From Laccaria trichodermophora (Eukaryota > Basidiomycota > Agaricomycetes > Agaricales > Hydnangiaceae), in contig JACTVC010000019.1 of assembly GCA_018417955.1 (NCBI GenBank), positions 186,001 to 250,000 of the forward strand: a DNA stretch of 64,000 bases, read 5' to 3'. This document shows positions 970 through 64,000 of the stretch, in pieces (the stretch's first letter is position 1; each line of letters starts with the position of its first letter). Under the pieces are notes generated by a model, which had not been told where the DNA came from, made no database searches, and saw only the letters and a program-made list of their open reading frames with translations. The position numbers and the translations under genes are program-made.

Positions 970-1578
970 TGTAACGGGGTAGATGTCATTACCTGGGAGC
1001 TCCCTCATCTCACACTCTTATACGATATTTCCAACCCAACGCAACCCTATTCCACGCCAGCTTCAGTATACCGCTTCTCAAGTACTTCGGATATCACACA
1101 GTCACAGTAGTCACACTTGCGTACAAAGTCAGTAGTCACGTACAAACAATCTATCTTTTTACATCCATTATCTTCGCCTCCCCTTGTGGCTCAAGAGCAT
1201 CGTCCTCACGACTCTTACTCAAGTCTTGCGAAGGAATAGAGTGATAAGGTCAGTTGTCAGAGTTCTAACTGTCTTTGGAGAGCTCGTGCCTCTCTACCGT
1301 TGCGCGCTTATCCTTTTACTCCTTTCCTACCCATAAGTAGGAACGCGCTATACTTCTTCGCGGCATTCCGGGAGAAGTGAGTATCGCTACGCTCGTGGCA
1401 TTCCAGAGCACAAGTAGCTACTCGCATAGCGTAGGACCTTCCTCACCTAGATTTAGAACTACTCGCAAGGTCATCACACCATACCGCAAACCATTTTCCT
1501 CCACTAGCTCGCCAGTCGCATTCGTCGTTTGTCACGAGAACGCAATCTACCTTGCTACCTCGTAAACTGATTCCCGCA
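970..1578 (+). repeat. 5' LTR (609 bp)
   Basis: Begins TGTAACGGGGTAG and ends GATTCCCGCA. Matched along its whole length with 12322-12930 and I saw no substitution. It contains the likely start codon of Gag-Pol (1552) near its 3' end. Confidence 0.95.
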
Positions 1579-7500: not shown

Positions 7501-9576
7501 AGGGAAGCCTTGGCTGCTAAGGAAGGTTTAGTAAAATTCCAGCCCTTTATCGAAGGTGAAGAAATCCTCCTCATCACGGATCACTCCGCGTTACAGTGGG
7601 CTCGTACCTATGAGAATGCAAACCGCCGCTTAGCCGCATGGGGGGCTATCTTTTCTGCATACGCGCCAAAACTGGAGATTATCCATCGAGCTGGAAGGGT
7701 CCACTCCAATGTTGACCCACTGTCGCGATTGCCCAGAGCACCTCCCAGCCATATTTCGCCGGTAGAACCAAATGAGCCAACAATTCGAGCCAAGGAGACC
7801 CTAGGCGAGAGACAGGACGTCGTTCAGGCCGAAAAGATGGCGGCATTTACCTTCGCAGCTTGGTCCATCGAAGATTGTTTAGATGAACCTAAAGAAGCGA
7901 TGATCAACGTGAGATCGCGAAACAAAAGATCAAAAGATTTGGACACGGCAACCTCGATAACTGGCGGCGCGGACGATGAAGCTGAAGACCTTGACACGCT
8001 GGCAACGACCGCCGAATACTGGGGGGCTGTCAATCCTCCGCCAACAATCCATTTAGCTATGAACGAAGACACTAAGAAGCAATGGAAGGAGTCTTACTTG
8101 GAAGATCCTATGTTCCGACCAATTGCTAACAAGGAAGGAAGCCGCTATGACAACCTGGAATCAGGGAGGCGTTTCTTTGTGGACAGCGACGGCATGATTT
8201 TCTTCAACAACGAAGATTACCAACCACGCTTATGTGTACCAGCAAGGTTGAGGAATTTCATTCTACGAGAAGCGCATGAGAATCCAATGGAGTCAGCGCA
8301 CGCGGGTCCAGAGCGTCTGTGGCAATCGTTGAGCTCGAGGTTTTACTGGAGGAGAATGAAGTTGGATATCATCAAGTACTGCAGGACGTGCGACGTCTGT
8401 CAGAAAACGAAAGTTTCCAACTTTACCAAATTCGGGATGCTTATCCCTAACCCTATTCCGAGTCGACCGTATCAGTCAATCTCGATGGACTTCATTGTCA
8501 ACTTACCCTGGTCAGAGGGTTTCAACGCTATATACGTCGTAGTAGACCGATTGTCGAAACACGCGTCCTTTATCCCTACAACCACCGGGCTGGATTCCGA
8601 GGGATTTGCGCGTTTGTTCGTGAAGCACATCGTGAGTCGATTCGGCCTCCCAGAAAGCATCGTCACAGATAGGGATCCGAGGTGGACGACTGATTTTTGG
8701 CTGAGTATAGCAAAAGCCCTGCAGACGAGAATGAGCTTGTCGTCTTCTCACCATCCACAACATGACGGCCAAACGGAGGTAGTGAACAAGCTTCTGACCA
8801 TCATGATGCGTGCCTTTGCAGCTGGAAAGAAAGATCAGTGGGCCGCTTGGATACATCTATTGGAATTCGCGTACAACAGTGCTGTTCATTCGTCGATTGG
8901 CACTACGCCATTCCATCTCCTTTTAGGCTTTCATCCACGGACTCCTTTGGATTTCACAGGAACGAAACGTTCCGACGACATTAATGACCGCGCGTTGGGC
9001 CCAGAAGCAATCACTTTCCTGGAAAACTTCGCAATGCATAGGGAGAGCGCGAGACAAGCAATAGCGAAGGCGCAGGACCAGCAAGCGAGATCGTTCAACA
9101 AGGGAAGACGACCCATACCCGACTTGAAGAAAGGGGATCGTGTATTAGTCAACCCCCACGCCTTGGAATGGGTGGAATCTAAAGGAGAAGGAAAAAAACT
9201 CACTCAACGATGGATCGGTCCTTTCGAAGTAATGCAACGCATCAACCCAAATGTTTACCGTTTGCGCATGAGCAACCTATACCCTGGATTACCGGTTTTC
9301 AATTATCAAAACTTAAAAAAATATGAACCTTCACCCGAAGAATATGGCGAGCGGAGCTCTCTACCTGAGACACGGACGAGACGCCCGGTGCAAGAGGAGT
9401 ACGAGGTCGAAAAAATAATCGCCGAACGACGTACCAAGAAGGGACTCGAGTATCTGGTTCGATGGGAAGGGTACAGTCCCCTTTATGATACTTGGGAACC
9501 GAGAAAGGCTTTGACGAATGCACCGGAGATAGTCGCCAAATGGCAGAGGCACCGCGACGCAGAGCGGGAGCTGTGA
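1552..9576 (+). CDS. Gag-Pol polyprotein of the chromovirus
   Basis: A 2674-residue single frame without a Gag/Pol shift. The first ~650 residues are Ser/Pro-rich, followed by Asp- and Gly-rich low-complexity tracts (around 3410-3610). A CCHC zinc knuckle (CKVCGSNNHWDKEC) lies near residue 997. A retropepsin-type active site (LDSCAD) is near residue 1227, the RT signature YIDDIVIYS near 1740, and the RNase H start YTDASDE near 1889. The HHCC integrase zinc site is around 2240-2285 and the DDE residues around 2313, 2373 and 2401 (HPQHDGQTE). A chromodomain (YLVRWEGYSPLYDTWEP) spans about 2615-2668. The only in-frame ATG before residue ~200 is at 1552 inside the LTR. The next sits near 2184, so the true start is uncertain. 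All catalytic motifs look intact. Confidence 0.93.
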   Translation: MLPRKLIPAKVDTVGTTDSLAGTRTGEAETTSVVDAIRPSERSKLKKPLRGTPPSSLSQPITSDRSRSSSPSKPRTSLLPTSTAPSLGRSSRQAPTPSRSNRRTEFSRGGTPRGGTTPPVFGRANSFSHQRFLPRPIDPASSLASSTSSFQLQFPSSKSGHSSHSFRAFEFKTPAPISPTTDINATGEILPSTSSSQQLDVAQPNTDSSSNMSSTTESSSTSTFRPMAEGGYDGSPMARIMRQYKEDSSDNDTSTWQRTVILSAKKSLLRNDIVELENSDKSFSLRSSLLEDVIQVVNELQVFLERASALVPERTSPFKVDPRDTFISILKESSDISQLRAAWMGLIRRLELSQENLTKYELQYRSPLQGENVPMPTSPISTDVGIYEAIEDEEDVDFRMRYIYENVPHHQDQIVSPELLRNGSSWSTILLVPNNNSASKASHVKLPTIVEHVPEEEIRRDKGKRRITDQFASAPSSPRILNVGFGTPFKSSSQFFVRPGGVPLPPQETLTQQNVLVGLGLPHTPAFESISNAGETRQPQKTNAHLQPRPSNPFEGRPLPPHMSQARIEDEGYNQRSSPVAKSDGGSSRHQRPSNDANIGPRGNEDRRRSPYPGGDPGGDDDDDDDGDSSLHRGNGPSHWDSRNNNQTPNHPRGGGGGGNPGGGGNGPGGSGSPGGGGNDSGGGGYQANNPNPGNIPYGNLVATIRNELKQDQLPVWDGNKDSAIEYFWKIQQLAALEGDIPVALGYWLWKSLKENSRIWMWFTTLPFSEQSKMRTHYLHYLKGIKDNYLGRTWQISMNRKYEGQCFRQEGFERESPPAYIVRRIMYTRMLVASDDGGPTEVYLVMQKAPISWGPILNLETIRSTSLLYSRATDHELALVHAAKYESSNVLTSDNLLYNLRKMGISLDRNRPVEKSARIASSKGSSDESDEGIIHEAFLGQLSRDECLREITSDPEILKEAFAVLKKRQRPPPKGGYPYSKNDHVTTKMGRLPPSPCKVCGSNNHWDKECPDWSFYEAKQLKAAYRIETNEEDDLEGYYSSVYSILVVERLASENKQDFHKAVLRDEEIIPSRERKSFANVPWKRQSVFMEEEEDEFWQDYESREKATTGLMYEVGHEEDEPLFKEAFSVHNSQQAPHKQEPPKASSENKQPSRDDIPLPPTRPREVKDPPEHVAAEQAPPPSKERLFKMPKARSRPEGMSAIGVSVLSTRGFVGGLNNGETDLRLDSCADITLISHEFYETLTSKPSIKQGMRMRLWQLTDKDSQLKGFVRIPIYMTTVEGDVIETEAEAYVVPGMTVPILLGEDYQQSYELGVTRNVEEGTHISFGRHGHRIQAVPVERTKDFGRLRQSAYMVGQYVRRQFHRRNKGKRHRRKVKFGVDERTVRASEDYRLRPHESKPIKVEGHLGEDREWLVQKNLLANANDTFFAVPNVLISAAHPWVPVANPTDHPRYIRKGEIIGTLCDPATFFDTPKTQEELKKFKDSAEVFRTVISLQTDGEDPNLDSAVPNASEEEDEQEEYGPKTAAMPDPSVYPSSDLEELIDVGSLPDHLKEAAWAMLRKRIKAFGFDGRLGSVPTKVHIRTVDGQVPIAVPMYHASPQKREIIDEQLNTWFEQGVIEPSKSPWSAPVVIAYRNGKPRFCVDYRKLNAATIPDEFPIPRQSDILASLSGAQVLSSLDALSGFTQLELAEDDIEKTAFRTHRGLFQFKRLPFGLRNGPSIFQRVMQGILAPYLWIFCLVYIDDIVIYSKSYEEHLVHLDKVLEAIEKAGITLSPKKCHLFYGSILLLGHKVSRLGLSTHAEKVEAIMSLERPRKLSQLQAFLGMVVYFSAFIPYYASVCAPLFQLLRKGCKWHWGVEQEHAFQSAKTALKSSPVLGHPVEGIPYRLYTDASDEALGCSLQQVQPMRVGDLKGTRTYDKLKKAHEKGLAPPRLVFGLSSKCKDHEFDDTWAEDFDETIVHVERVIAYWSRLFKNAETRYSTTEREALAAKEGLVKFQPFIEGEEILLITDHSALQWARTYENANRRLAAWGAIFSAYAPKLEIIHRAGRVHSNVDPLSRLPRAPPSHISPVEPNEPTIRAKETLGERQDVVQAEKMAAFTFAAWSIEDCLDEPKEAMINVRSRNKRSKDLDTATSITGGADDEAEDLDTLATTAEYWGAVNPPPTIHLAMNEDTKKQWKESYLEDPMFRPIANKEGSRYDNLESGRRFFVDSDGMIFFNNEDYQPRLCVPARLRNFILREAHENPMESAHAGPERLWQSLSSRFYWRRMKLDIIKYCRTCDVCQKTKVSNFTKFGMLIPNPIPSRPYQSISMDFIVNLPWSEGFNAIYVVVDRLSKHASFIPTTTGLDSEGFARLFVKHIVSRFGLPESIVTDRDPRWTTDFWLSIAKALQTRMSLSSSHHPQHDGQTEVVNKLLTIMMRAFAAGKKDQWAAWIHLLEFAYNSAVHSSIGTTPFHLLLGFHPRTPLDFTGTKRSDDINDRALGPEAITFLENFAMHRESARQAIAKAQDQQARSFNKGRRPIPDLKKGDRVLVNPHALEWVESKGEGKKLTQRWIGPFEVMQRINPNVYRLRMSNLYPGLPVFNYQNLKKYEPSPEEYGERSSLPETRTRRPVQEEYEVEKIIAERRTKKGLEYLVRWEGYSPLYDTWEPRKALTNAPEIVAKWQRHRDAEREL

Positions 9577-13049: not shown

Positions 13050-16000
13050 TCAGTCACCATTATCCATAGTTGTAATCTGAAAATTCGGCGTGGCAATATC
13101 ATCCGTTTCTCTCTCCACAGGGCGTCCTGCTTTGAGATCTTGAATTCTTTTGTTAAACGTGGCGAGGGAAGCGCTTTCGAACTTCTGCCGTCCCACATTC
13201 CGTAGGTCGGTGATTGGTTTCGGCATTGGCACATTTCTGTTGGTAAGTTTAGTTTGAAGTTTTGACTCACGCGCTTTGTTCGCTACACGCCATACAAGGC
13301 TTGACACATCAACATCTGAGTGCGTCGAGCCTTGATAACCTGCATTCACAGACTTGCAAACCTGCTTCTTGATTGACTGCAGGTGGTTAATGCAGGCAGA
13401 TATGTTGCCTAGTCGATCCCAGTTCGCGTATATTCCTTTGGCTGCGAATAGTTCCTAAAATATACCTCTGATAAATTTAAGCTTTGATCAAACTTGCTCC
13501 TCACACACCTTAAGATCGCCAATGAGGTGTTCAATATTTAGATCCATCGGCATGGCATGTCCATCAAGACCCGATGGATTGACAAGCATATTGTCACGAA
13601 TGATATTTCTGGTTGAAGGAACATTTTGAGTAAATGCCAGACTGATCATGAAAAGATATCACTCACGCAAACTCTGGTGTCCAGACCTCCTTGATGTTGA
13701 AGAGAAGGTGGAGAATTTCCGTTGAATAGTTATTTGAACCAGCTCCACGGAACGTGCAAGCCAGGTCGGGGAGGACATCTTCAACACGCCCAAAATCACC
13801 AGCTGATATTGCGTTGATAAGTTCTGTGACATAAAGCAAATCCCGAATCAATAAAATGGTGTTTGCGTGGACAGTATCAGGTTTGGAACTGGGATTGGGG
13901 CTGGAAGTCGGCACTGGGTTTGAGGTAACATTGGTGTCCCTCTGTTCTTTTGGAGGCTTTGCGAACATTTGCTTGCACTCTGGGGTGGCATATTTATCGA
14001 GAATTACACGCGCATTCTGGAGAATCTTATCTGGACCCGGTTTCGATTTTGCATAATCTTCTAGCGATCCATACTCGGTTCGCCATGCATTTAATAGAAG
14101 GCCATCGAGGATTTGCATCAAGGTTGAGAGAAGAGTGTGATAGTCAGGGTGTTCTCCTCCGAGGCGTGTCTTCTCGAGGATTAAAAAGAAGTGGGACAAG
14201 CTACCAAGGTTGTTCGTAGTACCACGGTGATTCTGTAGCAATGCCCATATCAAGTTCATCACAAGGTGGAAGACGCCGAATGCTATCTGGAAAATTCGGC
14301 GTTGTTCCCAAGAGGAGACGTCTTGTGCTCTCATTTCTTGCGCTCCTCGAATGCGAGCGTTTGTGAGTTGGTCATTAATTGTCGGAATTGCTTGAAGATT
14401 GATGATAGGGTCATCAGTGTCAAGCTTGAGCTGAACACAGTAGACGTCGTCGTGGACAAGAATGTTGCCTTGTACACTTGCCTCTTCGATCGTGCTCGCA
14501 CGAAGGCAATAGTACTTCGTCTTGTGGCCTTTGGTGAGTGGTCGCCGTTCAGGATGTTGTAGTAATGGATTATTCTTGAGATAGTCAAACCCTTTAACGT
14601 ATTTTACAAGTCTGTTCGCCACGTTGACGGCGGATTGAGCAATAAAGGATTCGAGAGATTTTTTAGACGGTCGAAGGTCAGACATTTTGAGTGGAGATGA
14701 GTTTTTGAGGCGTGAAAGTATGGGCTCGAGCTTCATGTCTTCTAATTTTGCATTCGTCAGTTCGTATATCAACGGAAATGTCCCGGATTGGACTTTGTTC
14801 GGGGTATTTGCTGTTTGTTCGACAAAAATGGACGTTGAGAGATTGATGTTGTCATATGCGAGAGCGTGAGGCCTGATTCGAACAGCCTTTCGAGCCTCTT
14901 CCAATGAATGCTCAGCGAGCGCGTCAATGATGTGTGTGATTGAGACGAATGACATTGACAGCGCCGACTGGTGGAGGACGTCGATCATTCTACGTGAAGC
15001 GCCTGTTGTCCACGCGAGGAGTCCCAGGCCAATCTGGACCTTACAGGAGGCAAGGGAGCGGAGGTAGTGGACTGAGGCACTGATGATATTTCTTGTCTAG
15101 AAAATCACCGTTAACTTGTCCAAAGTGAGCCATTTTGAATCAGAAACTCATACCGTCGGTCGGTTTCTAGTATCTTCAGATTCACTCCTTTGAGGCTCAC
15201 TTGCTGCATATAGAATTTTTGTCCAAGTGGGTGTTACTGCGGCAACAGGATCCATGATCGTGGCGACATCCCATTGTTCGACGTACGCAGGAGAAACAGT
15301 TTTGAGCTTCATTTTCAACAGAGGTTTGGCCGATTCCATCTCGTTGCTGACTAGTTTACAGATATGGTCAACGCCGCTATCCTGGACCCAGCTTTCCATG
15401 GCAGGGCGTGATTTCTTCTCCTCCCAAACGATATCCAAAATTTCGCGTATTCGTTCACTGTCACATAAGAAAGCGAGCCGATGAGAGTAGAATTCAGAGG
15501 ACTCTCCGCTGAGAATGGCAAGGAGGAGATCCATGACGGAAATGCGTGCTTTACGAAGGTTTTCCAGTGCCACCAGCATCGTGTCGACTTTCGAGGTGCG
15601 CTCCTTCCGAATACGCGGGATATGGACCCCCATCTCAATATCTTGTTCATTTTGGCTGTAGTCGTCGCAGCCAGATGAGTTGAAAGGGATGTCTTGAGAG
15701 AGGGGGAGGGGGGAAAGAGGTGCTGCTGAGATGCCGAGGTCGTTTGGTGTTGGAGCTTGTACTTCAACATCCATACTGTAGGATTCATTTGGCAGGAGAA
15801 GGCTCTCGAGACGGGGAGAAAACAAGCTGAGCAGGGCCTCGGCTGCTTCACATTCATGCTGTGTAGGAGCCTTCAGTGGGATTCGAGAAAGCGAAATGGG
15901 AGAACGGAGAGTGTATTCTGGGGCTGGTGTTCTAACCACATAAAAGAATAAATGTCCAAACGATATATGTCTGGGGGTATAGTTACAACGGAACAGGCTC

Positions 16001-39307: not shown

Positions 39308-40382
39308 TCACTCTGAATCGTCAGAGCCCGTGGCAGAATCGGGGTATTTATTCATTGACTCTTCCCTGCATGCTCTCCCGCAGAAGTAATCAGTCTCGCT
39401 TTGCGGCATGACGAGGCACATAATGCATGGTGAAACGAGGCCCGAAGTAACTGCCTCCCTGCGAATGAGAACAAAATTAACGAAATCATCTCCAACTTCA
39501 GCACAAGAAAACTCACTCGCGATGCCGCATCGAACAGTATTCACTTGCTTTCACTCCTTTTTCGTCAACATGGACAGGCTTCCCGCAGCCAGGGATAAGG
39601 CACCCAATATTATCGGCAACTGGTTGCGTGCTAATATGAAGTTGAGCGGTGGGAAGCGTGTTCGATGAAGCTGCCAAGGTCACACCGTTAGTTACACCCT
39701 GCGGAATAGCCTGAGTGGCCGGCTGGTTGGTAAGATTAAGGAATGGGTTATTGGAATGTGAATTTGGTACAGGTTGTACCGCAGCTACCAGCCCTGGCTG
39801 GGACGCGGGTAGCTGGGTAGCGATCCCGGGAGCACTTGACGCGAGTAGAGCCTGTACTTGAGGAATTTGCTGGACAACCAATTCTGGTCAGAAGCAGGTG
39901 AGTCTAAGTTTTTCAGAATCGCAGAAAATACGAAACTGGCGATTTGAACAGGGTCGAAAGCAGGAGGCGCTCCTTGCTTCGGGGCGTTAAACCCGCTGCC
40001 TTTGGGGTACGTGGGTGCTTTCCCTGCTGCTGCCTGTCCCTGCGCCGGTCCTGTCTTGCCGCCGGGGTTCGCCAGGGAAGCGCAATTCTTGCCACAATAT
40101 TCAAAATTCGGGAATTTTGGCTTCTTGTGGCAATGCTGAATGGTGTTGGTCGGCTTCAGCGAAAAACAAAGAAGCTGAATAATTACGTTACAGAGTGTCG
40201 CTGCTTGACTTGCACAAGTTTTCGAACAGTACAAGTGATTCGAGAATTTGGGTTTCTGGTGACAGTACTGGCATGGAAGTCAGGAGCGACGCTATACGAT
40301 GTATCAAGAGGAAACATACGTCACAAAGCTGAGTGGATTGAGCGGGTAGTGTAGGTTGAACGATTGGTGCGCGGGTGGCCAT
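39308..40382 (-). CDS. Cys-rich zinc-binding-type array protein lacking the PARP domain
   Basis: Five exons, 40382-40320, 40267-40187, 40135-39937, 39883-39517 and 39458-39308, close to 286 residues. Four Cys modules occur in order. The first two share the form C-x2-C-x4-P-K-F...Y-C-x3-C-A (CDYCHQKPKFSNHLYCSKTC and CNHCHKKPKFPNFEYCGKNC). The third is a C-x4-C...YCSMRH module (from IPGCGKPVHV). The last is C-x2-C...FC-x3-C (CIMCLVMPQ...FCGRAC). A Pro/Gln/Ala-rich linker sits in the middle. The neighbours at 43616 and 45050 have the same module order followed by a PARP-like domain, while this gene stops after the modules. It could be a regulatory or adaptor version, or a truncated paralog that stayed open. 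One intron uses the weak donor GTTTCG. Confidence 0.8.
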
Positions 40383-40586
40383 CTTGGACTGGTCTGAGAA
40401 GAGTATCGATCTGCGTCAATTCGGGGGTGATCTTTAATACCTCGTTCAAGCACCTAATCCTCGAGGATAAGCATCAAACATGCATAAGATTTAGCAACCT
40501 ATCGCAAAATGGAAATACACGTGTTAAGCGCACTACGAACAGACATGAAACGGAAGTATCACAACGAGGCTGCCATCGATAGCAAC

Positions 40587-41765
40587 CTAGGGAGCCTCGC
40601 GGAGTTTGGCCCGTAGCCGCTCTAAAGCCTTCCCAAGTTCGTTACGTCCCCTCCGATCAGCTCCTACGCCCCAGAATGCATCTTTGTCGGAGTCCTACAG
40701 GTAAACGAATTAGTGGCCGGATGAGTTTGACATGTTCGTATGAAATCACCTCAACTAGTTCCGCATCGCCAGTCGAGAGGAGTTCAGCTTTCAGATCTGG
40801 ATGTTGCGTAAATTTGCACCACAATGCTTCGTCCATCTATTAATGTTTTAGAACGGAGTAGCATGAAAAAGACAGTCAGTATACCTTCTCAATATTGACT
40901 TGTTTCCAGTCCGTCCGAACTTCGGGCTGGAATCGACGAGCTTCAGAAAATGCAACACTTGGCCTTTCTGAACAAGTGCGGATGTGTTCGGCGAGATTTG
41001 GGCGATGCTTCTGGAACTGCGGTATGGTCAGTATATAGAGGGCGAATCGAGGACAAATGTAATTTTTACTTTGAAAGATTGAAATAGGTGTTCGCTAGTC
41101 GGGTACCTTTTGCCTTTGTAAACGACGGAGTGAGCAGAGAAATTTGTGAAGCCATAATGTGGGTCGGATTTGTTGTAGAACAAGATGCGGGGCCTTGTTG
41201 TGCTGACTTGAGGGGATAGCCGTTGTGGAGGAGGAGATCCAGGTGGTGTATTTGAGTTCGAAGCGTAAAGAGTAGCGCAGTTCTTGGCGCCAGGCCGTCG
41301 AGAGCGGTGGGTGCTGATTCTAGGCGAGTTTTCTCGCGAATCCTGAGTTCCAGGAGGTGAGATGTCCTCAGTAATCAGGACCTGTGTTTCTACGTAGGAT
41401 GGGGTGCGACTAATGGGTACCTGAGCATTCAACCCCGCTTCCTCGTTTTCTGGGACTTCGGTCAGAGAAAAGATCGTGTTCAAACTATTCGGGTCCCATT
41501 CAGAGGGTGGAGCGTCAGACGTCACGTAGACGGTACGCTTCCGTTCCTCAATGCGATATTGCACGGGAGCCTGCTTTGTCGTAGGGGATGTTCCCATCGA
41601 GAGCGCAGGTAGTGGTTTGTTCTTCGAAGAAGGCGAGGTGACGATGGTGATTGTTTTACGAGAGTGCATCAAGGGTGAAGCTAGACGATCTTTTGGGTGA
41701 TAAAAGGGATCTGAAAGCAAAAAGCGTCTTGAATCGGATTTCAACATTTCGTTTCGTGCAACCAT
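40587..41765 (-). CDS. NADAR-domain (YbiA/DUF1768) protein
   Basis: Four exons, all in phase 0 (41765-41070, 41016-40885, 40836-40750 and 40694-40587), give 340 residues. The first ~190 are Ser/Pro-rich and probably disordered. The C-terminal ~150 match the NADAR fold: ILFYNKSDPHYGFTNFSAHS, VVYKGKRYPTSEHLFQSFKF, EALWCKFTQHPDLKAELLST and FWGVGADRRGRNELGKALERL. Known of the family: NADAR proteins bind NAD/ADP-ribose derivatives, and characterised members remove ADP-ribose from guanine bases. The gene sits between the Cys-rich array gene (204 bp downstream, same strand) and a PARP-like gene (divergent), so it may counteract or process their products. That functional link is inference. Confidence 0.85.
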
Positions 41766-42467
41766 GGGTGAAGATATAACTTGGCTCCGGAGTCAGACAT
41801 CATGAGTCCAGAATCAAATATCAAACTCCGAATCAGACTTGTGGCTTCAGACAGGCATTCCATGACAATGCTTCGTGTGGATAACGCGAGTCCGGAATCA
41901 GTGTCAAAACCGCCAATGTCACGGGGTGAACCTCATGTGGTGTCACACACTTGTCACATTCCTCCTCACCATCAACATGCGCTTCCTCTCAATCTGTATA
42001 GAATGGACGATTGCAGAAAGTCCTGGATCTATGAGCTTTTAGACTCACGCAGTATGCAAGGATGCTTTAAGTACGCGGAGTGTGGCGTTTCCTAGCTTGG
42101 TCGCCGCCAGCATGCGCGTCTCGGTGTCGTACTATGGATGAGAGGGGTGAGCATCATCATCATATCTATTAGCTTCGAAGTTTACGTGAGTTAAACCGTG
42201 AAGGTGAAACCGAAAAGATATTAAAGTTCTCTCTTGACGACAAGGGCGCGATTATGAACGGAACATGAGGCGTCAAGAAACGTGCCCTCAACACGCCTTT
42301 CTGGCATGCAATTGCCCGATATGCAGCATTATGGTAATCCGAGCTTTCACAGCATTGTCCTCCCCGCTGATGCGGTGCTGTTTACTTGCAGGGACACAAT
42401 TCTAACTCCAGTATAATATTCTGTGGACGCAGAACTTGGCCTTCGCATTTCCAACGCAATTTTCGAG
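41766..42467. promoter_or_regulatory. Divergent region between the NADAR gene and a PARP-like gene
   Basis: 702 bp between two outward-facing starts. Near the NADAR end there are short imperfect direct repeats of the type TCCGGAATCAG / TCCAGAATCA / TCCGAATCAG (41788-41905). A ~100-codon open frame here is made of these repeats and is not supported as a gene. Confidence 0.4.
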
Positions 42468-43502
42468 ATGGCTTCAATCATCGACGAGTTTAGTTTCAAC
42501 CACCCTCAGAACCAGGGGTATAGTAAATCGAAGCGGCTGGTCCTTCTCCCTCAAAGCGATCCCAGTTATGTCATGTGTGAGTCGCTCACCTCATCATTTT
42601 AACATGTCAACACAACTCATTGTGCGACAGTGGAGAAGAAATTTTTGAAGGGCTGGAAGCATCCCAATAAGCAGAAACCTGCTGTCCACGCAATTTTCAA
42701 GGTTCTTTCGTCAGAAACGAGTCTTGAACCCTTTCATCAATACAGGTTTGTAACCTCGTAATATCAAACAAAAGTTGTTTCTGATCCAGCTACCAGAGCT
42801 CGTGTCGCAGCCCACCCTTCTCTTAATACTCAGAAGAAGAACCCCGCAAATGAACAATTATTGTTTCATGGTACAAACCGATGTTGTTTGTTAGTCGAGG
42901 ATGGGAATAGAGTCCGTCTTTGTGGTCTACCGCAGTGTCATCTATGTTGTGTGATACGCAACTCATTTGACGTTACTAAGTGTGGTAAGTGTCATCTACC
43001 ATCTGAATGGGTGACAAGCTCTGACCATTCCCCAGGTACAAAACACAAATTTCGGCGGTTTGGGAATGGAATATACACAACCGCGTGTTCGTCAAGTGGG
43101 TCCCATTCCTATTCTTACTCAGTGTCTTCACTGAACCATTTTCAGAAGCCGATGATTATACGAACAATGCAGACAATAATTGCAACCTTCGGGTGCTCTT
43201 AGTGAATCGCGTCATTGTTGGGAAACCTCACAAACGGCGTCAGAATGCTACCAATCTGACCGAACCACCATGCGGGCATCATTCTGTAAGTAAATTCTCC
43301 TCGCAGACGGATCCATGCTTACTTACTCGTGCAGGTCATCGGCGAGCCCGGTATTGATCTCAACTACGAAGAGACCGTCGTTTACTCAAACGACGCGATA
43401 CGTCCAGCATATCTCGTTGTGTATGGGGATGAACCACCTCGGACTCAATCTACAATGCAAACTCTCATAAAGACATTATTCAAGACACCTTTGGCACAAT
43501 GA
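42468..43502 (+). CDS. PARP-like ADP-ribosyltransferase, catalytic domain only
   Basis: Six exons, 42468-42576, 42631-42745, 42797-42984, 43036-43095, 43146-43285 and 43335-43502, close to 259 residues. ART signature H-Y-E: LLFHGTNRCCLLVED (His), SSKADDYTNNAD (Tyr) and LNYEETVVYSNDAIRPAYLV (Glu), with FGNGIYT before the Tyr. A Cys pair region (RLCGLPQCHLCCVIRNSF) inserted after the His is shared with the two other PARP-like genes here. H-Y-E is the triad of NAD-using PARPs that can elongate chains, so activity is plausible. Unlike its neighbours it has no Cys-rich array. A stop lies in frame 52 bp upstream of the ATG, so the array is not simply missed in the same exon. Confidence 0.85.
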
Positions 43503-43615
43503 GCACATTTATTCCATTATTTATCGCTTTCTAGGAGTAACTTATAAAGATTTATTTCCATATCGTTTTCACTGCAATCAATGGTCATCCCCTTGATCCC
43601 CCTTCACGTTTCTCT

Positions 43616-44812
43616 TCATCTGGTATACATGATCACGAAGACGGGGAGAATGGCGTCTGCGCTTGGAACGAACAAGGATTCTTCGTCAGCGATCTTGCAA
43701 AAACGCCTTAGGATGCTAACAAGTATGCTTTGACAGAGAAACGAACCTCATCCAACATTGGCTCGACGGTTACATCGCATGCGATTACGACGCGATAGGG
43801 AGATGAGGTGCAAGATGTTGCGAAGCGATCGGCGAGTGCTGGATTCCGATAAGAATATATTCCGTCTCCAAATCTAATGTGAGGTTAATCTCTGCCGTAT
43901 TGCCATTGACAACTTCCTCACCTCCCCTTGTTGAAGGCCACACCGAACGCGAACGACTTGAAGGAAGACTTAATTGGACAACAGATACCGCACGATTTGA
44001 AGCTACACAGCGTGGAATCTTTGAAACCCAAATCGCATATGCATTGCGAGCTATGAAAACTCCGCACTTCTTCGAATTTGGGATTGTTCGAACTGATGAC
44101 ATTGGACGTTAACCATGACCAAATGACGGATAGATAAGCTCACCGATACTGGTCGTGTCGGATACGGACGTCGCGGGGGAGGATAATTTCGTATGCCTTC
44201 GCAAAAGACGGAGATCCCTCAGATGATTCCCACTCGCTCGAAAATTGGGCTCGCACTACAGCATTGGTTAGCCCTTTCCTTCAACATGGCAAAAGCTACG
44301 TACAACTTTTGAACGTTGATCCATCAGCATTGAGCTCTCGCAGCCGAGGCCCCACGCTCTCTCGACGATCGCAAGGAATGCATAACGGACCAACAATTCG
44401 AGGCTGGATGGCGCATTTCTGACAACCTTCTACCTGCCCCAAACGTACGCCTTCTCTGCACCCCATGTTCAGCGTGTGTCGATTTTAATAATTAGGATAC
44501 ATACTTCGCGTGTGACTCTGAACAGAAGTTAGAAAAGGCAGGTTTGCCCGTCGCACGACATCCATGAAGCACACATCCTGTTGGACTCGGACCTTGTCCA
44601 TTTCTCGCGCAGCTCCTGCTGCAATATGGATGCTTGAAACCCTTGTCGACGAATTTCGGCTTCTTCCCGCATATCTTGGAATGGACTTGAGTGTTTCTCG
44701 GTACAGGAATTATCTGCTGGCTGCTTACCTCGCAGAGATCGAGCTGGACGGGTGGACTGGACGTTCGATGGCTGGAGCCCCAGTGAACGACATTCTTGAC
44801 TATGGAGGCCAT
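43616..44812 (-). CDS. Cys-rich array plus PARP-like domain protein
   Basis: Seven exons, 44812-44729, 44674-44505, 44455-44304, 44255-44144, 44092-43922, 43873-43747 and 43693-43616, close to 297 residues. The N-terminal modules are CEICGKKPKF...YCSRSCA, then C-x4-C...FCSESHAK, then CQKCAIQPRIVGPLCIPC. A PARP-like domain follows: AQFSSEWESSEGSPSFAKAY, RSFHSSQCICDLG (the His is followed by Ser-Ser instead of Gly-Thr), SCGICCPIKSSFKSF, RFGDGIYSYRNPALADRFA (no Tyr of the usual Ser-x-Tyr form, an Arg/Phe in that place) and EESLFVPSADAILPVFVIMY. The altered HG[TS] motif suggests changed or lost NAD chemistry compared with the genes at 42468 and 45050. It is convergent with 42468 (113 bp apart) and divergent from 45050. 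Confidence 0.8.
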
Positions 44813-45049
44813 GAAGGTGCGGATTCAAGTTATGGAATCGATGCATATCGGCTTGAAATCAGGTTTCGTGTACGATCTGGCAACAACCTCGTGAAGGACA
44901 CGCTGCAGCCTCGTTTTCACGGCCAACATCTGATGCGGCTACCAGCATGGTATCGATTCGGTGGCACGTCCGTTTAAAAACCATTCTAATTCATTCTCCC
45001 CTTTACATCGATCAGCAACCAGCTCCCGAAGAGCCCCACATAGGCGAAG
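44813..45049. promoter_or_regulatory. Shared bidirectional promoter region of two PARP-like genes
   Basis: Only 237 bp separate the starts of the two Cys-rich PARP-like genes, which point away from each other. Both promoters must lie here or overlap the 5' exons, so co-expression is likely. No specific element was recognised. Confidence 0.45.
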
Positions 45050-46870
45050 ATGACATCTCATATTCCTTTTGCTTTATCGCTGCTCGGCGCTGTTGCGTCA
45101 GGCCTACAAGGCTCGGGGGTCGCGTCTTCTCTTAATCCCCCACCCCCAAGCACTGCATCTGCGCCTCCCTCTGCTCCCAAACAAAACACCTCAAGCTTGC
45201 CTGCCCCATCTGTACCAGTCAATGTCCCTGGATCGACTTCCAATGCCTCAGCTAACGGATTAGGAGCGAGCCCTCCTACCAACAATGTCGTAGCACTATG
45301 CGTTGTTCGTACGATTTGATCATCTCTCCAATCCTTCCGTCCTGATGATTGTTGCAGCATTGCCAACTTCGACCTAAGTATTTTGATGGGACCAAGACGC
45401 ATCCTTACTGCAGCAAAAGCTGCGCCAATAAGATCAAGGCATCCAATCCAAAGACTGGTTCCGGCGCAACCAACGGAAACTGCGACGTACGTCTCGTTCG
45501 TCCCATTCGTCTAGTTCAGTGAATGACTATTCGCGACCCTCTAGTTCTGCCATAATCGACCCAAGTATAACGATGGCACGCGTACTCATGATTTCTGCAG
45601 CAAGGCCTGCGCTAGGAGTGCGGGTGGACCCCAGCGGAGATCGACAATGCCAGGCGCAGGAGCCAATAACAAGGGTATTCCCCTTGTTCATCCTCCACTT
45701 TCAATAGCTGAGAATTATCTAGCTGTATGCCAAGCACCAGGATGTCAGAATCCTCCACATGGCGGTCCAGGTAGCGACTATTGTTCGATGGCTCACAAAA
45801 CGTCAGTACAATATCATCGTGTTACTAGCTATCATTCACTCGCTCGCGATAGCCTCGGAGAAACGTTGTGCCTCATGTGCCTCCAGGCTCCCAAGATGGC
45901 GAATTCCCATTTTTGTTCTCAAACATGTATCGATGATGTTGAGGCGAAAGGACCGATGATCCTGGAGGTTCCACTGGGTCATGCCACTTTCAAGAGCGGT
46001 CTGTCGTCTATATATATCATCAGCTAGGATCTATCCTCAAGGATCTGCTCTATTTGCTCTAGTTGCCGAACAGTTCAAATCATCTTGGAGACATTTCGGC
46101 AGCGCGTGCCCGCCTGTTCGCCGTATCTATAAGATCGTCTCTCCTCCAACATCATTGAGCAACTACAACGCTTATCGGTGAGCTAGGATTTGCGCCATTC
46201 CGGTCAGACCTTCAAATTCACGCCATACTCAGAGCGGCAGTAGAAAGTCGTGGCCAATTCCTATCTGCAGGTCGCACCGAGGGAAACGAAAACCGTCGCT
46301 GGCATGGGACTCGAAGAGTGTGCAACCTTGGGGACAAGGGTCACACTCAGTTCTGTTCTTCGGCGCAGTGTTCCCTCTGCTGTATCATCCGAAACTCGTT
46401 CGACCTTTCACTATTCGGGAAGAAGACCGGTTGGGGAAGGTGACCCTCCCATCTCCTACGTCTTTGTATGTGTGTAACTGACGCTGTGTTGTACAACAGA
46501 TTTGGCAAGGGCATCTATACTTCCTCGACATCTTCCAAGTCAGTCTCTTTTGCTCTTCTGCGCTTCCACATTAACGTAAAGTACAGGTCAAATGATTATT
46601 CCCACAACGACTGCCAGTCTTCCCTGAAGGCGATCCTATTGAACAAAGTCGTGGTCGGGAAGGGATGTAAGCTGTTACAGGACAATACAACGCTGACTGC
46701 TCCTCCATCGGGCTTTGACTCAGTACGTACCACCCTGCTTCCCAAAAACCATGCTCTCAACGATGCCAAAGGTGCTGGCTGAGAAAGGAGGAAGCCTGAA
46801 CTACGATGAACTGGTTGTCTATGCCAACGACGCCATCAGACCGTCTTTCCTTGTAATGTACGAACCTTGA
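45050..46870 (+). CDS. Cys-rich array plus PARP-like ADP-ribosyltransferase
   Basis: Nine exons (45050-45304, 45358-45486, 45545-45801, 45853-45998, 46063-46177, 46233-46439, 46500-46538, 46587-46722, 46772-46870) close exactly to 332 residues. A Pro/Ser/Ala-rich leader precedes four Cys modules: CVHCQLRPKYF...YCSKSCA, CDFCHNRPKYN...FCSKACA, CQAPGCQ...YCSMAHK and CLMCLQAPK...FCSQTC. The PARP-like domain follows with its entry helix (AEQFKSSWRHFG, VRRIYKIV) and H-Y-E residues: RRWHGTRRVCNLGD, RFGKGIYTSSTSSK with NDYSHND, and LNYDELVVYANDAIRPSFLV. All three catalytic residues are kept, so an active NAD-dependent ADP-ribosyltransferase is likely. Some donors are weak (GTTCGT, GTCAGT), which may mean alternative or inefficient splicing. 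Confidence 0.88.
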
Positions 46871-51528: not shown

Positions 51529-53992
51529 CTAATTGAACAGTCTGACTGGGTTAAGATGATCAAGTAACAAGGGAGGACACACCAGGAGGTAATGGGCGAC
51601 AGACTTCTGCATATCATGGATTGAGAGATGACCATGAAAGTGTCCAAAATCTACACCGTTATGAACTTCCATCACACGTTGAAATGAGTCTGGCGAAATT
51701 TTTTGAAAAAATATTCCTAGTTCGTCTGAGGAAGGTGAGGATTGTGAGAGGTGGAAGGACCAGTGTCGCCACCATTTCAAACTGCGCAGCTGTTGACGGA
51801 GAGATTCCCAATGCCGTGCAGCAGCATCCGGTAGGCCATCATCCAACACAGGCTCCGAGATACACTTATCGATGTGCCTCAACAAGAGCAATGTAATTTT
51901 GGTGTGTACATCACACCCAATGAAACATTTTTTAGAGCGGATTGAGTCAGAAAAAAATTCTTCAAAAAGATGGGGATGGCTTCCCATGCCAGCTTCAAAA
52001 AGACTGACAAGACAGTCACGTAGCGGAATAATGGAGTTAGGATCACCATCTTCAACCGACATCTCGAACACTGTAGCCATCGCCTGGGTCATGGGATATA
52101 CGGCGGTATATGCAGTTATTTCAGGGAGCATCGCAATCCACATGATAAGATGTTCAGGTGAAGGACTTTGATCCACTGTGGAAGCAATTTCACGGTCAAG
52201 GAGGGTGCGATAGCGGAGATGGAGTTCTAAGCAAGTGTTTTGGATGTCCTAGTCAAGAAGGTGAATTCAGAATGCCACGACAGCATAGCACAGGAAGTCA
52301 GCTTCACATTTTTCTTCAACCATGACAATATGAGCGCCAGTACATTTGGTTTGTCCAGCCGATGTCGCATGTTGCGCTTCAATTTATCCGAATAATCCAG
52401 GACCGCTTCATCACTCGCACACTCAGTTAAAAGATTTAAAAGTTCTTGGGTGGGTGCAGCATCTTGAAAATGGTCATACCAAAACGACAAGGCGTATCGG
52501 ATCGCTTCAGCTGCACAGTTCTTTTGAGAATTAGTGTCATGAGACTAAACAGCACCCACGTCGGCCATCGCCATCAACGACAGTTTTACGAAACAAGACC
52601 CGAAAGCACATTTGTGTGATGTTGGCATGCACATTCTTTGAGTCTAGGAAGTAGTCCCCTGATCGTGAGCGGTCCACAAAAAAGTCAATCAGTGATGCAT
52701 GAGCTATCTTGATAGAAAATTTTAGGCCATCAACGTCAATAATTGAATGGACGTCATACAGCAAAGACTCAAAATCTCCACGTTCGAGGCCTAGTAGGTG
52801 CTGAATTAGAGGAATGTAATTGTGTTCCTTTCCCGTCACGATGAACAATAGCAGACCAATAATGCGCAAGGTACCCTTCGGATCACGTGTCGAGTTCAAA
52901 ATCTCTTGATATAGCGAGTCAAGATCTGCAAAGGCTAGATGATTGGAAGGGGAGCCGATACCGAGAACGGTTTTGAGCCTGCTGGGGGGGTAATGTCGAG
53001 GGTCATCAATGAACTTTATTACTGTTGACGGATAAATGAAATGCCCTGAAGCCTTCTTGACAAGAGTCTCGATGTCGTGGTAAGATGGCCATGTTCTGGA
53101 GAGGCCCCGATCCTTGCGAATGCGTTCAAACTCTTTCCGAAGAAAGATCGACACATCGTGACGGGATTCAAAATCTTGAGTAAGTGGGATATGTCGAGAT
53201 AATTTCAACAAGTTGTCGTTGAAGATGTTTCGGATATGGGGCTCTGGACGGCTGGCGATAAGGAAACAAATGGGGAGCCTCTGCCCGCTGACCGCTTCGC
53301 GGATGGCATAAAGGATGCTACATTGGTTGCCGTCGCCATCACACTCATCCAACCCATCAATAATAATAAACCTGTGAGGACTATACTCCTTTGAAATTCG
53401 TCGGAGCGGCTCAACCACAAGGTTTTGCAACTGTACTTTGACGGAACGCGAGAATACTAATGGATCATTTTCGACAATTTCCTCGATAATTGGCTTGGTT
53501 TCGGGAAGGTTTACCGTGAGCTGGTAAGAGATGGTAGCCGCCAAGTGTTTTTCAGAATTTCGATCGGACGTTCTCCGAGAAAAGAAGAAGCTGGAAGCCA
53601 GTCTTTTAGGGTTCTCCTCTTCGCATCTTTCTGCAATAGATTGAGCAATTGCAGACTTCCCAGCTCCTGCAGGGCCATAAAGCCAGAGAAAGGGTGGCGA
53701 CGCATCCGATGTAATCAATGTCATTAAATGGTTTAAGATACTCTTACGAGTATCGGGGTGGCATTTTGGAGGAGGAAAGCGCTGCTGCGAATCGTGAAAC
53801 GCACTTGCAACAACTTTGGAAGCCAGCAGCTCGAATCCTATAGTGAGTTTCGGTGAAGATGAAGACGATCGCTGTAGGTGCTAGTGACGCACCTCTGAGT
53901 GGTTCGCGGCCTTCAAGTGAAATGCTAGCATTTCCATTTACGTTGTAGTAGTTACCACCATGAATTTCCAAGTCACTTGTATTGTTGAACAT
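51529..53992 (-). CDS. NACHT-domain NTPase (NLR-like)
   Basis: Exon 1 (from 53992) encodes MFNNTSDLEIHGGNYYNVNG, the short N-terminal motif seen on many Agaricomycete NACHT proteins. After a GTGCGT...TATAG intron the frame continues into GFELLASKVVASAFHDSQQR. The NACHT core follows, with Walker A GPAGAGKSAIAQS (about 53690) and Walker B RFIIIDGLDECDGDG (about 53370). Also visible are an RxSSR-type ICFLIASRPEPHIR segment and a winged-helix-like region with HNYIPLIQHLLGLERGDFES and HASLIDFF. At least two more exons follow (around 52520-52300 and 52235-51529) with no recognisable repeats. Fungal NACHT proteins act in self/non-self or symbiont sensing. The effector and ligand parts are not identifiable here. 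Junctions after 52540 are approximate. Confidence 0.85.
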
Positions 53993-61079: not shown

Positions 61080-64000
61080 TCAAGGTGATGTACCCCGCGA
61101 CGCTAGCCAGCGATCGAGCGCTTCGCAATCTTGAAGTCCGGAACCGGGAATCCACTGGTCGTGTTCTGTGCCATAGCCTGACCAACAGACCAAGTACTGA
61201 TAACCTCGTCCACGTCGGCGCGCATCCAGAATTTTGTCAATAAGGTATTCTTCGTTGCCGTCAGGATTGATTATAGGCGGTGGTTCTTCCATATGACGAG
61301 AGGGGAAAAGGGAGGTGTCTGATTCAATATAAGGGAGGATTTGTGAGGTGTGGAAGACGGGGAAGATGTTGGGTGAGTTGGGGAGGTCGAGAGTGACTGT
61401 GGAATGTTCCTCGTCGATGCTAGTTATCGTATATGGTCCGTCGTACTGGGGCATGAATTTTGTGACGCGTTTTTCGCCCTTAGCCTTGTAGTCATTACGA
61501 CAGTGCAACGTGGACAACTGCACCCAGGAACCTATTTTAAAAGGGAATTTCAGTGTGCGGTGTTTGTTCGACTGAATAGATTGTGAAATTTTAGCCTGTA
61601 ACAAATTATCCTGCGCTTCAAAGACGTCTGCTTCCAGTTGACGCATTACATGCCAGGCGTCGACGTCAGAGACAGTTGCGCTAGATTTTGCGGGGGCGAG
61701 GGGGGGAATGATGCGAGGACTGCGTCCCATATGTAACTGGAAAGGCGTGAAACCGGTGGACTTGTTGATGGTATTCATAATGTCAAACCGGATTCGGGGA
61801 AGCGCGCGGACCCAGCCTAGTTGGTTGCGTTCGACATGGAAACGGAGTGCTTGGTTCACGGTTTTGTTAGTGCGTTCGCTAGCCCCATCTGTCTCCGGAT
61901 GATATGCTGTTGACATTTTGAGTTTAACACCCGTGAGGCGGTGAAGTGCTTTCCAGAACCTCGACATGAACAGTTTGTCTCTGTCGGATACAATGTCAGT
62001 TGGTAAACCATTCTCGCAGTACCACTCATTGAAAAATATCGTAGCAAGTTGTTCTGCGGTGATGTCGGTACGTGTGGGGATGATTCGCACATCGCTGCCA
62101 AGGCAGTCAGTGAAGGTAATGATACAGTTTTTTGTCTCGTCTTCTGGTAAAGGACCAATGAAATCGATGGCAACTGAGTCCCCACGTTGGTCTGGGATTG
62201 GTAAGGGATGTAGTGGGCCCAAAGGTTTCGTTGTTGTGCTTTTGTTTCGTTGGCAATCAGGACACGATTTAATGTATCCTTGTTCGAGGTTGTGGCGCAT
62301 GTTTGGCCAATAGTAGGAGTCCTGAAGAGAGCCGTACGTTTTGTTGAAACTGAAATGACCAAGGGTGTCATGTGCAAGCGTGAACAGTGTTTCGCGGAGA
62401 TTGGTAACACGCGGAATTATGAGGCGATCCCCGATGTACCAGAGGTTGTCGCGCAGTTGAAGGTTTGGAAGACTTAGTGCAGCGGAGGGTAGTGTTTTGC
62501 ACCAGGGGTCGCTTTTGTAACCTTCAATAACTTCCTGCAAAAACTCTTTGTCAGCTGAGATTTTAAGCGTAGCATTTACCACAGACGGGGACGTTGAAAA
62601 GGCTGTTAGAGCGTTAGCCGCAGTTAAAGGTCCTGGCGTGTCGCATTCGAAAACACTCGCAATTATCCCATCAGTGTCGTCGTCTGGGCAAAAGTTGTAA
62701 GGATGTTTAGCGGACGATTCGGCTTCAGAGGAAGAGGTGGTGTATGGTAGACATGATAATGCATCAGCGATGGTGTTGTCTTTGCCTTTGATGTAAATAA
62801 TCTTGGCGTCGAATTGGGACATGAATTCCATCCAGCGGGCTTGACAGTGTGAGAGATCTTTTTGTGTAACAAAGTTCTCCAACATCTTATGATCAGTGTA
62901 GATGAAAAACGGACAGCCCAATAAATCAACTCGCCATTTTTTCAATGCACGTATGATGGCCAGGAGTTCTTTTTCGTGTACGGGGTAGTTTAGTTCTGCT
63001 CCCTTGAAAGTCATCGAGTCGAAAGCAACCGGGCGTGCATTTTCCCATGTAGTCCCAAAGGAAAGAATGGCGCCCGAACGTTTGTCACTAGCATCTGTTG
63101 TTATGAAGATTTTGTGATCCGGTAATTTTGACAAGTCAATGGTTGTTAGGCATTCACAGCTTGTTACAATTGTTTTGATGCCGTCAAAGGCAGATTGATG
63201 ACGATCTGTCCAGGGAGGAAAATTCTTTTCGGCGTCCTTCATGGTGAGTTCCGTTAGAACGCCAGTATGTTCTGCAAGAGATGGCAGGAAGGCAGCCAGA
63301 TAGCAGACTAGACCTAAGAAAGCGCGAACTTCAGTGGCGGATTTTGGGCGTGGCCATTCTACAATGCGATTGGCCTTTTTTGTGTCTGCCTCGATGCCAC
63401 GAGCGCTGATGTGGTGGCCAAGAAAATCGATCTCCAAGCAAAACAGGTGTGTTTTGTCAGGGTTCACGTACAAGCATGCATCCCGTAGTGCACGGAGTAT
63501 TGTGGAGACATTTCGTTCGTGTTCCTCAATGTTATTGGACCAGATCACAATGTCATCTAAATAAATATGACAGATTTTTCTGATAAAAGGTCGGAGCGCC
63601 AACATAACGCATCGTTGATGAATAGCTGGTGCATTTTTCAAACCCATAGGCATAACTAACCACTCGTAGAGGCCAAGTGGAGTTGTGACCGCTGTTAAGG
63701 GAATATGATCTGGGTGCATGCGAGTCTGGAAAAAACTATTGGTCATGTCGATAGTTGCCCAGATTTTTCCTTTTGCGCAATCACTCAATATATCGTCGAT
63801 TCGGGGAAGTGGGTGACTGTCAGTAACTGTATTTTCATTGAGTTGTCAGTAACTGTATTTTCATTGAGTTGTCGGTAGTCATTTACCCACCTTGGTAATA
63901 CATTGGGGTTTGCTTTGGGAACTATGAACGCGGGTGATGCGCATGGAGATGAGGAGGGACGGATGAGGCCTGCATCTAAATGTTGTTGTATCAGAATTTG
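61080..64000 (-). pseudogene. Pol polyprotein of the second element, frame-broken in RT
   Basis: Open from 63788 to the stop at 61080 (902 codons), with the matching RT start continuing to 64000 in another frame. Motifs in order: RT IYLDDIVIWS (about 63560), RNase H FITTDASDKRSGA (about 63095), integrase zinc region HDTLGHFSFNKTYG...CPDCQ (about 62370-62250), DDE residues in VAIDFIGPL, IVSDRDKLFMSRFW and YHPETDGASERT (about 62170-61890), and a chromodomain YLVCWSGYGTEHDQWIPG near the end (about 61220-61110). The frame break lies at 63821-63872. Downstream of it the sequence looks uncorrupted, so the damage is probably young. Confidence 0.88.
63821..63872. repeat. 26-bp tandem duplication inside reverse transcriptase
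   Basis: The unit CAGTAACTGTATTTTCATTG plus AGTTGT occurs twice without a gap (63821-63846 and 63847-63872). 26 is not a multiple of three, so the duplication shifts the pol frame. Confidence 0.9.

Follow-up and report, generated by a model that had tools for sequence, protein, structure and literature searches.

Linked PARP-like, cysteine-array and NADAR genes in Laccaria trichodermophora and other mushroom-forming fungi: a candidate system of reversible ADP-ribosylation

Do mushroom-forming fungi keep enzymes that attach ADP-ribose next to an enzyme that could take it off again? The question is raised by a stretch of 64,000 nucleotides from Laccaria trichodermophora (assembly GCA_018417955.1, contig JACTVC010000019.1, forward-strand positions 186,001 to 250,000; hereafter the window, in whose numbering all positions are given). 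Between positions 39308 and 46870 it carries five genes with introns, arranged as A(-) B(-) C(+) D(-) E(+). C and E encode transferases of the PARP family and D a degenerate relative; A encodes an array of cysteine modules also found in D and E, and B a protein of the NADAR family. The neighbourhood of E, B and A is largely common to many mushroom-forming fungi and may therefore represent an undescribed system of reversible ADP-ribosylation. That the cluster holds a conserved relation between ADP-ribosylation writers and an eraser is, in our judgement, moderately probable.

Conserved neighbourhood of the candidate writer, eraser and array genes

Protein searches with E, B and A matched 352, 756 and 142 sequences, respectively, and the 120 best matches to each were listed and analysed. 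The organisms named in them are, judging by genus, Agaricomycetes. Linkage was read from the entries with a named species and a contig size (for E, B and A, 104, 88 and 100 of the 120, respectively), the rest being dropped, and a shared contig was deduced from equally sized contigs within one species; unlinked entries can thus stem from different strains or assemblies of a species. E and B, the transferase and hydrolase genes whose conserved proximity is expected of a writer-eraser pair, lie on one contig in 46 of 53 species. B and A do so in 45 of 56 species, E and A in 51 of 57, and all three genes jointly in 29 of 38. Random placement would yield 1.6 to 1.9 linked species per pair, a baseline that represents chance and not the conservation of gene order in the class. 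Linked species include some with short contigs (15.9 kb for E and A, 21.7 kb for E and B), and linkage of two or three families extends to the Polyporales, Hymenochaetales, Jaapiales and Atheliales (the order was checked for five species). The synteny of NADAR with Cys-rich PARP genes, which a preliminary description of this DNA had proposed to look for in related genomes, is therefore present.

Gene names and gene models give a closer view of the spacing. Among the pairs numbered in both names, the numbers are at most 8 apart in 9 of 44, 9 of 54 and 10 of 49 cases for the three pairings; many of the remaining numbers are of the JGI style, which is unrelated to gene order, and some of the close ones may be of the same kind. 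In Coprinopsis cinerea, E, B and A correspond to CC1G_11638, 11641 and 11642, so that two tags separate E from B, the same number of genes as in the window. Neighbouring genes have also been merged into single models: P0002 of Gymnopilus dilepis and P0004 of Psilocybe cyanescens combine a C-like protein with E (P numbers denote homologues in the searches), and P0133 of Agrocybe chaxingu combines B with A.

Genes and domains of the cluster

All five genes were rebuilt from the DNA as closed frames with introns that without exception run from GT to AG and measure 41 to 64 nt. Some alternative splice sites were picked using the Cys pattern, and the close homologue P0001 then matched these joins. 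The five in-frame models of the preliminary description were recovered within 39308..46870, with 4 to 10 exons per gene in place of the 4 to 9 given there. In protein searches, E is 96% identical over 100% of its length to an environmental protein, while proteins of Laccaria amethystina match B (96% over 91%) and A (93% over 100%); C shares 69-71% identity with the C-like halves of P0002 and P0004, which come from other genera. Because such close homologues exist, the models of A, B, C and E are not products of chance, and a reading of these four genes as chance frames or fragments was rejected; D is not covered by this argument.

Gene E (45050..46870, + strand; 444 aa) has ten exons (45050-45304, 45358-45486, 45545-45674, 45723-45801, 45853-45998, 46063-46177, 46233-46439, 46500-46538, 46587-46722, 46772-46870) and gene C (42468..43502, + strand; 259 aa) has six (42468-42576, 42631-42745, 42797-42984, 43036-43095, 43146-43285, 43335-43502). 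Both exceed the curated cut-off of 26.7 bits for PF00644 (PARP), E with 48 and C with 46 bits, and in the alignment both retain the H-Y-E catalytic triad, as do two relatives of C. Across the best 120 of the 352 E homologues, 117 proteins retain the His, 118 the Tyr and 118 the Glu, and four Cys between the His and Tyr motifs of the transferase domain recur in 116, 117, 117 and 117 of the 120. The same intradomain Cys are present in C and D. The E orthologue of C. cinerea adopts the fold of ADP-ribosyltransferases (ART). In Thelephora terrestris, P0055 and P0090 are E-like proteins with two tandem transferase domains, possibly the result of merged gene models. Gene D (44812..43616, - strand; 301 aa; seven exons: 44729-44812, 44505-44674, 44304-44455, 44144-44255, 43922-44092, 43735-43873, 43616-43693) matches no Pfam family above its cut-off, PF00644 included. 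Its alignment keeps the His but has Phe for Tyr and lacks the loop before the Glu region, and the Glu itself aligns only with a shift of one residue. The earlier count of three ART-type domains, two of them with an intact triad, agrees with these data.

The modules of the array are CxxC...C-x(2,3)-C/H units. Four of them make up gene A (40382..39308, - strand; 286 aa; five exons: 40320-40382, 40187-40267, 39937-40135, 39517-39883, 39308-39458), which has no transferase domain. In E four modules accompany the transferase and in D three accompany its degenerate counterpart; C has no array. A simple pattern detects three modules in A, two in D and three in E, and the remaining one in each, of the form C-x(4)-C...CSxxH, is visible in the alignment. 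An array on two PARP-like genes and on one array-only gene had been described before, and this distribution was found again, although the array of D comprises three modules and not four. A matches no Pfam family above cut-off, and a scan of the first 31 members of its family yielded no Pfam match that recurred consistently. A phase-0 intron divides the CxxC of the first module in A, D and E, separating its two Cys. The transferase parts of C, D and E, which show 41% (E-C) and 32% (E-D) identity, likewise have introns in common: one of phase 1 before the QF region, one of phase 2 after Y-R, and one of phase 0 before the Glu segment. With these common positions and phases and the split first module, the transferase genes C, D and E and the array gene A would most simply be gene duplicates, not retrocopies. 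Among the Boletales, A-type arrays with acidic linkers occur (P0353, P0355, P0359, P0360), and no Boletales protein appears among the best 120 of the 352 E matches.

Gene B (41669..40587, - strand; 308 aa) has four exons (41070-41669, 40885-41016, 40750-40836, 40587-40694). As first modelled it ran from 41765 to 40587 and encoded 340 aa; its start was moved to the conserved Met33 at 41669 because most aligned orthologues begin at or near this residue. B scores 131 bits for PF08719 (NADAR; cut-off 35.1), which confirms the NADAR gene reported amid the PARP-like genes, and its family has the NADAR fold. The protein consists of a conserved N-terminal segment, a linker and the C-terminal NADAR domain, and its catalytic residues are kept in 116 to 120 of the best 120 of 756 homologues. 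In the B orthologue P0122, E273 takes the position of E125 of the P. nicotianae NADAR, the Glu of the YbiA subfamily; 116 of the 120 listed homologues have Glu there, and P0122 thus does not carry the Asp of the DarT1-associated (BC4488) subfamily. The N-terminal segment (B residues 8-69, about 41463-41648 on the - strand) is predicted to form three strands and a helix, with a predicted local distance difference test (pLDDT) score of about 77-83 for residues 41-70 and lower values before them, and gave no significant fold match. Some mushrooms encode tandem NADAR-domain proteins without this segment (P0143, P0162, P0174, P0236). The alignments behind these comparisons (A1, A2 and A3) took in 40, 36 and 31 of the 120 listed proteins, while the residue counts for E and B took all 120.

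Six-frame searches of the genome (59 Mb in 77 contigs), which ignore introns and in which only the best candidates were scored, found no relatives of A, C, D or E outside the cluster; an expanded PARP family was thereby dismissed. Two further NADAR loci were detected, one on contig C34 (L001) and one on contig C3 (L002, G000:C3:832044-835220). The latter has a long low-complexity N-terminus and reads SATHLHE in place of the TSEHLFQ motif, and is possibly inactive. No DarT was found by a six-frame search whose control was detected in only 1 of 14 cases. Searches for PARP_reg and PARG were empty, as they equally were in the control genomes, and so are no proof of absence.

A candidate mechanism and its alternatives

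In the mechanism proposed here, E, and in this genome also C, would use NAD+ to modify a macromolecule with ADP-ribose. The array of Cys modules in E may bind metal and guide the enzyme towards its target or partners; as non-catalytic partners or competitors, A and D might adjust this targeting, and B, as a NADAR N-glycosidase, would remove ADP-ribose or a product of the writers. By analogy, the acceptor would most likely be a nucleobase, because tested NADARs release ADP-ribose from guanine and not from thymine (PMC11543638; this and the other papers are cited for the parts of their text that were available). In its most specific form, the proposal is that E and C, as PARPs of a zinc-array type, would modify DNA or RNA by adding ADP-ribose to guanine or a different base, that B, the NADAR linked to them, would reverse the modification, and that A and D would act as non-catalytic regulators, the whole serving control of or defence against viruses, transposons or foreign nuclei. 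This version is tentative, and we consider it rather doubtful.

Several observations weigh against a writer-eraser relation, and the cluster has rival explanations. The writers might modify proteins, by mono- or poly-ADP-ribosylation (H-Y-E permits both), while B clears a soluble or nucleotide by-product; the cluster would then combine a protein-signalling module with a salvage enzyme. We see this as a serious possibility, albeit short of an even chance. E and C have the triad of polymer-forming PARPs, and the folds nearest to the E family are those of tankyrase, PARP10 and PARP14, all of which modify proteins. Soluble ADP-ribose derivatives, too, have been put forward as substrates of phage NADARs (PMC9503650), whereas the NADARs of PMC11543638 take ADP-ribose off guanine in DNA, and the Cys arrays, as putative nucleic acid-binding elements, may point the same way. 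The genome also encodes other erasers, an ARH-type protein on contig C45 and macrodomains on contigs C11 and C29, and B therefore need not be the partner eraser. It may even be a metabolic damage-control enzyme, a riboflavin-intermediate N-glycosidase of the YbiA type that lies by chance beside PARP genes with another job. P0122 reaches 101.3 bits for the riboflavin N-glycosidase model TIGR02464 (cut-off 73.7), and for this reason the metabolic explanation stands as a rival. By sequence, B is nearer to E. coli YbiA (92 bits), its closest solved relative, than to the tested P. nicotianae NADAR (41 bits; 8bau), a eukaryotic guanine-ADP-ribose hydrolase; the two are tied as fold matches of the B family, from which the contacts Y84, D86 and R93 of the P. 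nicotianae enzyme are absent. Bacterial and plant NADARs are known to cleave riboflavin intermediates, and the natural targets of NADARs not linked to DarT are unknown (PMC11543638). However, the NADAR on contig C34 scores higher for TIGR02464 (126 bits), and the searches for PARP relatives detected none on that contig. B matches no RibA or RibD domain in the Pfam scan, and its N-terminal segment is conserved in 33 of 36 aligned NADARs, the three without it being domain-only paralogues. Nor does a purely metabolic role explain why B is linked with E as well as with A in most species, and on balance we think it unlikely.

The linkage itself could reflect slow decay of gene order or common divergent promoters without any joint biochemical pathway. 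Agaricomycetes retain degraded macrosynteny within the class (PMC3219968), and the cluster contains two divergent gene pairs, B-C and D-E, separated by 798 bp (41670..42467) and 237 bp (44813..45049), as measured from the gene ends. The larger gap may be a common control region and the smaller a common promoter. In addition, E and B are not on one contig in 7 of the 53 species, among them C. cinerea, where the contig sizes differ though the tags are only three apart. The tag distances from B are 18 to E and 15 to A in Amanita inopinata, and those from E are 20 to B and 16 to A in Psilocybe cyanescens; the genes are therefore not tightly adjacent everywhere. Nevertheless, neutral or purely regulatory synteny is quite unlikely in our view: linkage of two or three families reaches four further orders, close tags recur in some assemblies, and most of the domain-only NADAR paralogues lack linkage. 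Linkage to E is seen for 47 of 53 NADARs that span over half of B and for 2 of 6 that span half of it or less, although these numbers are small. Some E models, moreover, depart from the triad: His is missing in P0076, P0093 and P0098, Tyr is replaced in P0055 and P0115, and Glu in P0083 and P0119. Several departures at the triad and Cys positions are alignment gaps, and some of those at catalytic residues are probably mis-predictions. A and D, finally, might be functionless, decaying fragments of E-like genes, since A lacks the transferase part and D intact catalytic residues, and each of the 360 proteins fetched is at least as close to A, B or E as to D. Yet A has 142 homologues by profile score, its module Cys are invariant or nearly so in the 31 aligned of the best 120, with the pattern reaching the Boletales and Hymenochaetales, and the frames of A and D are intact over five and seven exons. 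We regard such decay as highly improbable. As a conserved unit, the five-gene set of the preliminary description is upheld in part: E, A and B are linked in most species where two of them could be placed, and B and E retain their catalytic residues across homologues, but conservation of D was not seen and that of C was seen only in the two merged models.

Related systems, surroundings and implications

If the writer-eraser reading is right, the cluster would work like the bacterial pair of DarT1 and NADAR. In DarTG1 (PMC11543638), as here, a transferase gene adjoins a NADAR gene with conserved catalytic Glu and Lys, and reversible modification is the proposed logic. The writers of the mushroom cluster, however, are of the PARP type with H-Y-E, E carrying a zinc-like array, and both E and C match PARP, not DarT; the NADAR has Glu instead of Asp at the subfamily position, and array-only and degenerate genes are added in a eukaryotic, intron-bearing set. 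With a writer other than DarT and a NADAR without the subfamily Asp, the cluster is not a member of DarTG1. With E. coli YbiA and the TIGR02464 family, B has in common the nearest solved sequence and fold and a score above the cut-off; unlike them, it has a conserved N-terminal segment and sits in a transferase cluster, and a second NADAR of the same genome scores higher. The P. nicotianae NADAR, which differs in the three contacts named above, is called not DarT-associated, and no neighbouring PARP is named for it in the available text (PMC11543638).

Among fungal PARPs, only Clades 1 and 6 are reported in the available text of PMC2964712, a study whose main text mentions neither Laccaria nor Coprinopsis; Saccharomyces cerevisiae has no PARPs (PMC2964712). 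The PARP catalytic domain is common to E, C and Clades 1 and 6A, but Clade 6 lacks the Glu and Clade 6A has a UBCc domain (PMC2964712), whereas E and C keep the Glu and have no UBC match. They likewise differ from Clade 1 in that PARP_reg and associated domains are not matched, PARP being the only family above cut-off. A zinc-finger-like array that precedes an ART domain recalls animal PARP13/ZAP, to which, among PDB entries, the E protein of C. cinerea is also most similar in sequence (35 bits). The modules here are of the CxxC...CxxxC type and not CCCH, the neighbourhood includes a NADAR gene as well as an array-only gene, and E keeps H-Y-E, while ZAP is catalytically dead.

Elsewhere in the window, an open reading frame with NACHT and NPHP3_N matches (a STAND NTPase, NLR-like) lies at 52540-53880 on the - strand, about 5.7 kb from E; NACHT and NLR-like proteins are candidate immune receptors in fungi. 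Two Ty3/gypsy-like retrotransposon frames near the window ends (1435-9573, + strand; 61083-63845, - strand) both carry reverse transcriptase, integrase and chromodomain, and the former is open over 2713 aa. A DUF6589 protein (253 bits) is encoded at 13666-15096 on the - strand.

Transferase-NADAR pairs are known from bacteria (PMC11543638). The preliminary description knew of no reported fungal system with this arrangement. In agreement with it, none was found in the open-licence PubMed Central literature, which was listed in part, and judging from its genes the cluster appears to be a new form of transferase-NADAR arrangement, in a eukaryote. The gene neighbourhood nominates a writer for NADAR, in a group that includes the genetic model C. 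cinerea. If B undoes the modification made by E or C, the linked PARP-NADAR set would constitute regulated, reversible ADP-ribosylation in a large eukaryotic group, and the role of eukaryotic NADARs would become testable by single knock-outs. The free-standing array family represented by A would, if this holds true, gain its first functional context.

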